A DNA stretch of 64,000 nt from Comamonas endophytica (GTDB taxonomy: Bacteria; Pseudomonadota; Gammaproteobacteria; Burkholderiales; Burkholderiaceae_C): positions 1 through 64,000 of the forward strand of contig NZ_CP106882.1 in assembly GCF_023634805.2 (NCBI RefSeq), in the 5' to 3' direction. This document shows positions 38,184 through 64,000 of the stretch, one piece after another (position 1 is the stretch's first letter; the number at the start of each line of letters is the position of its first letter). The notes below the pieces were generated by a model. The model was given only the letters and a program-made list of their open reading frames with translations, did not search any database and was not told the origin of the DNA. The position numbers and the translations under genes were made by a program.

Positions 38184-38716
38184 GGCGGGACCGCCGCAAG
38201 CGCCGCGGCAGGTCGGTGAGTAAAAAGCAAAATTTTCGCATCTTTGGCAGCTTGCGCCTGGCTGGCGGCCATGCGGGGCAAGACGCAGAAGCGCCGGGCG
38301 CCAGGCGGCGTGGGGTTGCCAACGGCAGCGGCCCGCCGCTGCCGGGCATCGCCCGCTCCCCAGGGCAGTAGTCAGCGCGTGTTTTGTCACGCGTCCCGAA
38401 GACCTTGCCCCTGCCGCTGCATCAGGTGCCTGAACAGGTCCACACGGCACAAAATCATGCAGATGGGCTGAGCCGCTTTTCACCGCAGCAAAAGCAATTG
38501 CACTTGGCCGTCGCTGCGGGCAACGACCGATTCCGCATATCGCCATGCGGGCTGTGTTGTCTGGCTGCTCCCGCGGCCATGTGGATGGCGGCTTTTTTAG
38601 CGGCTAAATTCCTGGCTGAATCCGGTGGCGTAGTCAAGGGCTGATGGGAGCGACCAATGGAAGTAGCGCACGGAAATATATGATGCAGCCATCCGTTTCC
38701 CCCGTTTGAATCCAGC
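38184..38716. other. Intergenic region upstream of the tyrosine recombinase
   Basis: About 530 bp with no convincing protein in any frame. It holds the perfect KorB operator at 38596-38608 and a TATGAT -10-like hexamer at 38679-38684 before the recombinase start; no matching -35 is clear. Confidence 0.5.
38596..38608. promoter_or_regulatory. KorB operator (OB) sequence upstream of the recombinase gene
   Basis: TTTAGCGGCTAAA is an exact match to the 13-bp IncP KorB operator TTTAGCSGCTAAA. It ends 108 bases before the recombinase ATG. The second copy in the window, at 62340, shares the next bases TTCCTG as well. A KorB-type protein is encoded at 62992. Match is seen; function follows from the IncP literature and is inferred here. 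Confidence 0.8.
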
Positions 38717-62339: not shown

Positions 62340-62352
62340 TTTAGCCGCTAAA
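62340..62352. promoter_or_regulatory. KorB operator (OB) overlapping the stop codon of the deoxyribosyltransferase gene
   Basis: TTTAGCCGCTAAA, an exact IncP KorB operator. On the minus strand its right half encodes the final Phe-Ser-Gly and TAA of the adjacent gene, so the site is embedded in coding sequence. It lies 640 bp from the end of the korB-like gene. It shares the flanking TTCCTG with the other copy at 38596. Confidence 0.8.
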
Positions 62353-62847
62353 TTCCTGTGTCAACTGACGTAACCGTGCCAGTGCGGCCTTCAGGCCCAG
62401 GAAACCATCCTCGCTGCCAAAGGCCACGGCGCTGAGGCTATGGGCCAGCATCAGATTCAGCGGCAAGCCGAAATCCTCGACCTCGCATTGCGCATCGAAC
62501 AACTGGCCATGGGGGCTGGCCTGCAGCCGCTGCGCGATCGTGGCCGGCGTCGGGCAGTAGCCCACGACCGGCTTGCCCCGGGCCAGCGCATAGGAGGCCT
62601 CCCAGACCGTGCCGCTGTCGGGTTCGAAACCCCGAAAGTCGCGCAGGTTGGCGACCACCGCGTCGGCTCGGTCGATGAGCTGGCGGTTGGCCTGATAGAT
62701 GGCCAGCGATTGCCTCTCGGCCTGTGCATCGAGCGGAAACAGCCCGGTGAAGCCGGCTTCGCTGCAGACCGCCTGCATGCGCCGCCCATGTGCGCGCGCA
62801 TCGGGATAGAACACTTCGGGTCCGGCAAGATAGACGCTCAAGGACAT
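62341..62847 (-). CDS. Nucleoside 2-deoxyribosyltransferase-family protein
   Basis: 168 residues: SVYLAGPEVFYPDARAHG is the N-terminal nucleotide-binding motif, ADAVVANLRDFRGFEPDSGTVWEASYALARGKPVVGY carries the catalytic Asp/Glu region. The enzyme moves deoxyribose between bases or hydrolyses modified nucleotides. GAGGTGAG precedes ATG 62847. Its last codons lie within a KorB operator. It follows the korB-like gene by 144 bp on the same strand. Confidence 0.9.
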   Translation of the reverse strand: MSLSVYLAGPEVFYPDARAHGRRMQAVCSEAGFTGLFPLDAQAERQSLAIYQANRQLIDRADAVVANLRDFRGFEPDSGTVWEASYALARGKPVVGYCPTPATIAQRLQASPHGQLFDAQCEVEDFGLPLNLMLAHSLSAVAFGSEDGFLGLKAALARLRQLTQEFSG

Positions 62848-62991: not shown

Positions 62992-64000
62992 CTAGCCTTC
63001 GAGCAACGCCACCAGCGTCACATGCTGCAGGCTGGCCTGCAGTTCACGGCCGTCATCGATGTACTGGAGCCACGCCACCCCTTCGGCAGGCGGGCGGCGC
63101 TCGAGCATCAGGCGCGCGATGCGGTCCTCGTGGCGCACGTGCACCACGGCTTTCCTGAGCTTTTCCGCCGCCGCAATCTTGCCGCCCTTGGCCGCGAGGG
63201 CTGCGGCAGCCGATGCTGCGGCAGCCGATGCTGCGGCAGCCGATGCTGCGGCAGCCGATGCTGCGGCAGCCGATGCCGCGGCCGGGGGTGCGGCATGGCC
63301 ATTGGGTCCGGGCGCGGGAGCGGCACCGGCCATCGGCGCCGGCGCGTCCTTGGCGTCCAGGAACTCGCGCAGCAGCTTGACCGTGCCACGCGTGATTTCC
63401 TGGCTGGCATCGCCCAGCCAGGCGCTCACGTCCTGCGGCGTCTTCTTGTAGGCCGTCATCAGCTCGTTGACCACGGTCACATCGCGCACCCGGCCCGAAT
63501 TGAAGACCTGGGCCAGCGGCTCGGGCAGGTCCAGCAGCGTCACATGCTGCGAAATGAACGCCGGCGACTTGCTGATGGCCTTGGCGATGTCGCCCTTCTT
63601 GACGCCCTTGGCCAGCTCGCGGCCGATGAAGTCGGCAATCTCGCGCGCCGTCAGCTCGTTGCGCTGCAGATTCTCGACGACCTGGTCGGCTTCGTTGTAA
63701 TCGTTGTCGATGAAGCCCGGAATGCTGTCCAGCCCCGCGCGCTGCGCGCCGCGAAAACGCCGCGCACCGTGGTTGATCAGGTAGCGGCCGGGTGCCTCGG
63801 GGTTCTCGCGCACCGAAATCGGCGTCTTGACCCCGCGCAGGCGGATCGAAGCCGCCAGCTCCTCGAGGCTCTGCTCGGAAAAGCCCGGGTTGTCCTTGGT
63901 GCGCGGCTGGTGCGGGTCCTCGTCGATCAGCGCGATCTCCAGGGCCAGCGGTCCGCCGCCTGCGGCCTGCGCCTCGGGGCCCGCGAGCAGTGCCGACAGG
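62992..64000 (-). CDS. korB: KorB-type ParB partition protein/transcriptional regulator (5' end outside window)
   Basis: 335 residues visible, reading to the right edge. The order matches IncP KorB: ALIDEDPHQPRT with DNPGFS, RGVKTPISVREN, the CTP-binding ParB motif NHGARRFRG, ENLQRNELTAREIADFIG, the helix-turn-helix KKGDIAKAISKSPAFISQHV, an Ala-rich linker, and the SH3-like C-terminal dimerisation domain ending RRPPAEGVAWLQYIDDG and LVALLEG. The Thr in VRDVTVVNEL and Arg in EITRGTVKLL sit 29 residues apart, like Thr211 and Arg240 of RK2 KorB, which contact the operator. KorB slides as a CTP clamp, represses promoters at a distance and partitions DNA with IncC/ParA, expected upstream beyond the window. 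Confidence 0.92.
   Translation of the reverse strand, partial: LSALLAGPEAQAAGGGPLALEIALIDEDPHQPRTKDNPGFSEQSLEELAASIRLRGVKTPISVRENPEAPGRYLINHGARRFRGAQRAGLDSIPGFIDNDYNEADQVVENLQRNELTAREIADFIGRELAKGVKKGDIAKAISKSPAFISQHVTLLDLPEPLAQVFNSGRVRDVTVVNELMTAYKKTPQDVSAWLGDASQEITRGTVKLLREFLDAKDAPAPMAGAAPAPGPNGHAAPPAAASAAAASAAAASAAAASAAAASAAAALAAKGGKIAAAEKLRKAVVHVRHEDRIARLMLERRPPAEGVAWLQYIDDGRELQASLQHVTLVALLEG
63200..63274. repeat. 15-bp coding tandem repeat inside korB
   Basis: Five exact copies of GCTGCGGCAGCCGAT, encoding Ala-Ser-Ala-Ala-Ala repeats in the linker between the operator-binding and C-terminal domains. The repeat keeps the frame, so copy-number change only alters linker length. RK2 KorB has an acidic linker at this place instead. 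Confidence 0.9.

Follow-up and report, generated by a model that had tools for sequence, protein, structure and literature searches.

The stretch of DNA analyzed here (the window, 64,000 bp) is C2:1-64000 of the Comamonas endophytica genome, whose contigs are C1 (3,710,006 bp), C2 (647,507 bp), and C3 (131,045 bp), and it ends within a korB gene (Table 1). The original prediction, made from the letters of the DNA, was that the reverse-strand frame at 62992-63999 encodes a protein that follows RK2 KorB, and this assignment is borne out: phmmer matches the product to RK2 KorB (8qa8) with an E-value of 1.7e-105 and to its C-terminal domain (1igq) with 7.2e-18, and the Pfam KorB_C, ParB_N, and KorB domains are all over their cut-offs. 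Past the window end, the start is called at C2:64032 or slightly beyond, in an open frame of 370 aa. All six functional residues that we checked against RK2, which serve in contacts with CTP, OB, and KorA, are kept: Arg117, Asn146, Glu248, Phe249, and the operator-contacting pair Thr211 and Arg240, 29 residues apart, which had rightly been described as unchanged. The roles of Thr211 and Arg240 are said to have been described by Khare in 2004. Roles for Arg117, Asn146, and Phe249 are given in a study of the RK2 protein (PMC11790492), which describes a CTP clamp that moves off its operator (OB) by sliding and is locked by KorA at the KorA operator (OA). By homology, the C2 protein is predicted to be a CTP-dependent clamp as well. 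The variable part of KorB is its linker, which in the C2 protein (window 63100-63400) is alanine-rich, has repeated Ser-Ala4 units, and is longer than in relatives.

The incC and korA genes lie directly upstream of korB, in the operon order of the IncP-1 plasmids used for comparison (the RK2-type pBS228, the IncP-1delta plasmid pAKD4, and pAV3334-2), with which C2 also shares the KorB residues and the OB word. Tyr84 of KorA, the residue that partners these contacts, is a phenylalanine on C2, as it also is in pAKD4. In a tree, the five KorB proteins of the Comamonas group form one clade (100/100) among the KorBs of IncP-1 plasmids. A gene pair for an ECF sigma factor and an RskA-type anti-sigma factor (C2:65299-66599) stands directly upstream of korA and is found in Comamonas antarctica as well.

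Table 1 Features of the korB region and of the second partition locus; window and C2 coordinates coincide
Feature	Position	Strand	Description
Exact OB	38596-38608	.	Intergenic gap of cargo DNA; overlap copy at C2:631231
Exact OB	62340-62352	.	On the deoxyribosyltransferase stop codon, 0.65 kb downstream of korB
Nucleoside 2-deoxyribosyltransferase gene	62341..62847	-	Open reading frame of a cargo gene, named after and aligned with the annotated C. antarctica homolog; stop codon within OB
korB	62992..64000	-	C-terminal 335 codons in the window; Pfam and PDB matches, residues (see text)
incC	C2:64083-64856		Upstream of korB; Pfam AAA_31
korA	C2:64853-65149		Upstream of incC; Pfam KORA
Second replication/partition locus	C2:69669-73080 (L011:5669-9080)		Rep with weak RepL similarity, divergent ParB, ParA

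When the contig ends are aligned, C2:1-54,876 matches C2:592,636-647,507 at 99.96% identity, with 0 mismatches and 19 gaps. We read this 54.9-kb overlap as an untrimmed circular overlap, so C2 is a circle of ≈592.6 kb, separate from the chromosome and not an integrated element. Some frames in the overlap region (window 1-54876) may carry indel errors at the 19 small gaps. In composition, C2 resembles the chromosome: its GC content is 66.8%, compared with 66.9% in a 400-kb sample of C1, and its tetranucleotide distance is 0.048, compared with 0.227 for the first 20 kb of C3. Plasmid-type replication and partition genes, a criterion for chromids, are present (Rep, ParAB, and parS); C2 has no tRNA genes, the chromosome-type core genes that we looked for, and its GC skew gives no clear origin. 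The proposal that a KorB/OB system serves a large chromosome-like replicon is thus upheld by the composition and by the confinement of the sites to C2; its assignment to a chromosome or an integrated element is not. C2 is an IncP-derived secondary replicon, megaplasmid or chromid.

A related replicon of 642,987 bp (NZ_CP054841, here CA) is present in C. antarctica 16-35-5, with the same korA-incC-korB trio annotated; its gene table was gone through in full. The GC contents of that replicon and its chromosome are 67.7 and 65.4%, 2.3 points apart, so the chromosome-like composition expected of a chromid is seen for C2 but not for CA. About 285 kb of C2 aligns to CA at 84% identity, the overlap being counted twice. 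Chromosomal alignments, sampled by chance (n = 18), average 80%, the three longest at 83-89% and some, perhaps paralogs, at 66-69%. These identities, 84% for the replicon and 80% for 18 chance-sampled chromosomal alignments, are compatible with long joint residence.

The genome holds the OB 13-mer, TTTAGCSGCTAAA, in 10 exact copies, every one of them on C2, and 9 distinct sites are left once the overlap copy is removed; the 3.71-Mb chromosome has none. The two exact operators noted ≈24 kb apart in the window are present, 23.7 kb apart. With one mismatch allowed, shuffled sequences contained 0.02 matches on average, and none of 100 shuffles reached 2. None of 119 permuted half-sites occurs on C2 or CA, against 10 copies each for TTTAGC, a count that on C2 includes the overlap copy of site 38596. 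Allowing one mismatch adds three OB-like sites, again all on C2, at 65235 (in the korA promoter), 394053, and 537812. The OA core, TTTAGCTAAA, occurs once in the genome, at C2:65205, and the korA promoter reads OB, 19 bp, OA, close to the 20-bp spacing of pBS228. The OB of this promoter has a non-consensus A/T center, and its CA version carries one further mismatch. Around the 13-mer, T is favored before and A after for 2-3 bases, and the sites are unevenly spaced.

To survey the IncP gene content, C2 and CA were searched with IncP proteins (tblastn, E-value 1e-4). Both replicons encode TrbA, B, C, E, F, G, I, J, L, and M; TraC, F, G, L, and M; and KorA, IncC, and KorB. On C2 these genes form blocks, with incC and korA at 64.1-65.1 kb, trb at 76-88 kb, and tra at 294-301 kb. 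The earlier remark that no plasmid backbone lies nearby is therefore true inside the window and false beyond it, and the conclusion that the system belongs to something other than a plasmid was mistaken as to origin, IncP transfer and control genes still being on C2. TraE, SSB, KfrA-C, KleA, KleE, KlcA, and KorC were not found on C2 or CA in the same search, and a KlcB query matched only a short stretch of KorA. TraI, TraJ, and TraK gave no match on either replicon with two IncP queries each. Two TrfA queries also found nothing on C2 or CA at 1e-4, so that of the genes suggested to lie upstream (incC/parA, korA, or trfA), incC and korA were recovered and trfA was not. C2 retains a near-complete Trb mating-pair set and TraG (C2:76000-88400, 294300-301100), but the search detected no IncP relaxase; the C. 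antarctica replicon is typed as non-mobilizable.

The OBs at trbA/trbB are another feature shared with IncP-1 plasmids. C2 differs from them in size (≈593 kb versus 45-89 kb), in its single OA versus four to six, in the position of most of its OBs in cargo DNA, in the failure of tblastn to find TraI, TraJ, TraK, TrfA, Kfr, and KleA/E, and in the possession of a second Rep-ParAB-parS locus. By comparison, pBS228 has 10 OBs in 89 kb, 2 of the 10 inside annotated genes, and 6 OA; pAV3334-2 has 11 OBs in 45 kb, 2 of the 11 inside annotated genes, and 4 OA. The 334-kb Aromatoleum pU120 contig has 7 OBs.

At the second locus (Table 1), four copies of GTTTATGCGTATAAAC stand between the Rep and partition genes and nowhere else on C2; CA has three exact copies. 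The ParB encoded there is 92% identical in C. antarctica and has relatives on plasmids of Polaromonas, Thauera, and Sulfuricystis. The repeat is one base from gTTTATGCGCATAAAc, the parS of Burkholderia cenocepacia chromosome II as given in PMC7022226, and it similarly lies beside Rep and ParB. Unlike the Burkholderia system, the C2 locus is separate from KorB, and its ParB is <30% identical to Burkholderia proteins among the matches listed. The chromosome has its own ParB with two universal parS sites in the 20-kb sample around it. Because of the second Rep-ParAB-parS locus, KorB is not the sole partition protein of C2. The Streptomyces plasmid SCP1 likewise carries two type I partition systems (PMC13245405); C2 differs in that one member of its pair is an IncP global-repressor system whose sites are spread over the whole replicon.

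Across the genus, this KorB (E-value 1e-30 or better) is encoded in 5 of 53 genomes, and these contain 10 (9 distinct), 10, 9, 15, and 13 exact OBs. Among the 48 congeners without this KorB, 47 have no exact OB and one has a single copy. The Rep protein occurs at ≥74% identity in the same five genomes and at 62% in two others, which have no KorB match. Being intergenic palindromes flanked by runs of T and A, the sites could also be terminators or belong to a common intergenic repeat that has nothing to do with KorB, but we see almost no chance of this. The 47 of 48 KorB-less congeners and the 3.71-Mb chromosome have no copy, similarity between flanks ends 2-3 bp outside the 13-mer, and the co-occurrence of KorB and its sites already contradicts the idea. 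We also set aside the idea that a mobile repeat had carried OB from place to place, in view of the same end of flank similarity.

None of the 56 distinct exact OBs in the five genomes lies inside a called gene, and 9 of them overlap a stop codon. Genes were called by a program trained on 23 annotated C. antarctica genes, and the 10 CA sites lie outside annotated genes or on their stop codons. A caller trained on the longest open reading frames was discarded, as it chose wrong strands and placed 2 of 12 CA sites inside frames unannotated in the record. Since the OB word is A+T-rich and contains stop codons, part of this noncoding placement is expected. The orientation of the flanking genes was classified for 53 sites: 13 are convergent (6.4 expected), 31 co-directional (33.8), and 9 divergent (12.8), the expectation being each genome's own gaps, weighted by length, with flanks that run off fragments counted. 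The convergent excess arises in the fragmented genomes; taken by themselves, C2 and CA match the expectation, with 3 sites convergent, 10 co-directional, and 6 divergent. A count of 45 sites, from which 11 were left out for an uncalled flank, had looked like a strong divergent depletion (13/26/6; binomial 0.004 and 0.001), reduced in the 53-site recount to 9 against 12.8 expected. Because the two complete replicons match expectation, we dropped the claim of promoter avoidance; placement on them is indifferent to promoters, not biased away from them.

Outside the kor, trb, and tra blocks lie 6 of the 9 exact OBs on C2 and 7 of the 10 on CA (13/19), which we call cargo OBs. One on C2, at 292338, is 2 kb from traC; other sites are at least 24 kb from any IncP block, some of them on stop codons of metabolic genes. 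The position of the cargo OBs among ordinary metabolic genes, often off promoters, points tentatively to a function other than gene repression. All OBs might nevertheless be repressor operators, KorB having extended its regulon to cargo genes through the short- or long-range silencing known from RK2. According to PMC11790492, the RK2 protein can silence a promoter as distant as 1.5 kb, a range that may bring a gap of any orientation within reach, and of the sites classified (n = 53), 9 are divergent and 31 co-directional. This extension of the regulon seems rather unlikely to us, however, given the 13 convergent gaps, the 9 of 56 sites on stop codons, and the single OA on the replicon, KorB alone having repressed only about fourfold in the assay published in the same source. 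The genes flanking cargo sites, moreover, mostly differ between C2 and C. antarctica.

Conservation of the sites is partial. All five KorB genomes have the OB that follows the deoxyribosyltransferase gene, with 13 of 17 columns identical compared with 12 of 116 in the flanks, and the LysR-side OB is kept between C2 and CA (16/17 columns versus 52/116). The exact site at CA 290325 is likewise kept with two others, and the flanks have diverged. The trbA/trbB OBs occur in all five genomes, on the trbA side in G026 and G038, and the traG/traL OB in three, although in the alignment of the latter the G006 site is not superposed (6/17 columns). CA 374794 and its G038 neighbor were rejected as positional homologs (3/17 columns). 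Among sites whose two flanking genes are also neighbors on the other replicon, a counterpart exists for 4 of 5 on C2 and 4 of 6 on CA, one of each four with 2 mismatches. The three sites that lack one (C2 328968; CA 267380 and 582751) are all in cargo gaps, none of which (0/3) keeps a site. Constraint on position is thus seen at the kor, trb, and tra sites, and the cargo sites turn over. A gap shared by two loci (L072 and L099) holds a site in one and, in the other, a decayed version plus an exact site 58 bp on, in DNA missing from the first genome. The perfect correspondence between KorB and abundant OBs across the genus, combined with the turnover of positions, suggests that selection acts on the possession of sites and not on their exact places.

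Turnover between C2 and C. antarctica would also fit a history in which the cargo OBs are relics of a complete IncP backbone broken up by insertions, with only the kor, trb, and tra sites still at work. The spread of three IncP gene blocks over the replicon and the 2-kb distance of site 292338 from traC agree with such a history. We nonetheless judge it doubtful and clearly improbable, because several cargo sites are exact between species in diverged flanks (the LysR-side site, and CA 290325 with two others), an exact site stands beside a decayed one in the same gap, and other sites are at least 24 kb from the IncP blocks, on stop codons of metabolic genes.

The explanation that we prefer, at a probability of about 50%, is that KorB loads at OBs throughout the replicon, represses the kor, trb, and tra genes, and has a non-promoter role at the cargo OBs. 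An IncP-type KorA-IncC-KorB operon is kept on a ≈593-kb secondary replicon in one Comamonas clade, together with a different Rep that has its own ParAB-parS; the IncP relaxase, oriT-protein, and replication genes went undetected. KorB would load at the 9-15 OBs round the replicon and slide into neighboring DNA; its repression, as on RK2, would act at the korA promoter with its single OA/OB pair and at the OBs of trbA/trbB and traG/traL. Because there is one OA only and many OBs are convergent or on stop codons far from IncP genes, we infer that the cargo OBs are mainly loading sites. Such dispersed loading would need no promoter and would most likely mark or organize the replicon for IncC-aided segregation, with KorB-IncC auxiliary to the origin-proximal ParABS.

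Several observations speak for this explanation, in which the binding, sliding, repression, and non-promoter role of KorB are predictions: the retained residues and operon order, the sites on C2 alone, and their co-occurrence with KorB (5/5 KorB genomes with sites, 47/48 others without); the placement of the sites (0/56 in genes, 9 on stop codons, convergent 13/53 versus 6.4 expected, and one OA); and the site kept in diverged flanks, the decayed site accompanied by an exact copy at 58 bp, and the second Rep-parS-ParB-ParA locus. Weighing on the other side are the orientation on the complete replicons, which is as expected, the unconserved cargo positions (0/3), the uneven spacing, the non-consensus center of the korA-promoter OB, and the A+T-rich, stop-containing word that explains part of the placement.

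A more specific version, which we offer tentatively as a possibility and lean against, makes this repressor and partition protein of a conjugative plasmid a replicon-wide organizer in this Comamonas lineage, its clamps loading at dispersed OBs set irrespective of promoters, with KorB and IncC segregating, positioning, or guarding the replicon and ParABS acting at the origin. In Bacillus, sites of the nucleoid-occlusion protein Noc are not known from the terminus region. With the same tentativeness, the architecture of an organizing KorB would be like that of Noc, which is similarly (PMC7022226) a ParB-family protein with replicon-dispersed sites beside an origin-proximal ParB. The two differ in that C2 KorB scores 73.4 bits against a Noc family cut-off of 315, and in that C2 OBs also lie opposite the rep locus, reaching about +289 and -280 kb from it on the 592.6-kb circle.

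On C2, a large secondary replicon has retained the control circuit of a mobile plasmid, and this offers a natural test of the two roles of KorB: as most loading sites are far from IncP genes and have no KorA operators, clamp loading for segregation or organization is testable apart from repression. Among the literature matches listed, from coverage that leaves out most subscription journals, there was no KorB/OB system on a chromid, a megaplasmid, or a Comamonas secondary replicon.

The lone exact OB in a KorB-less congener is at L100:1573 (G022:C1:96372), where no gene is called around it. The distribution beyond the genus comes from a genome-contig scan (53 loci) and 11 handles. Two KorB-like proteins of Duganella (L155 and L156), 52% identical, have no exact OB in the stretches examined, and the genome of L155 has none at all; the operator may have changed in these. 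A record titled 'Pantoea sp. 18069' (L108, NZ_CACSJA010000007) falls in the genus group of the window and in the same KorB clade, and its title is probably a misidentification.
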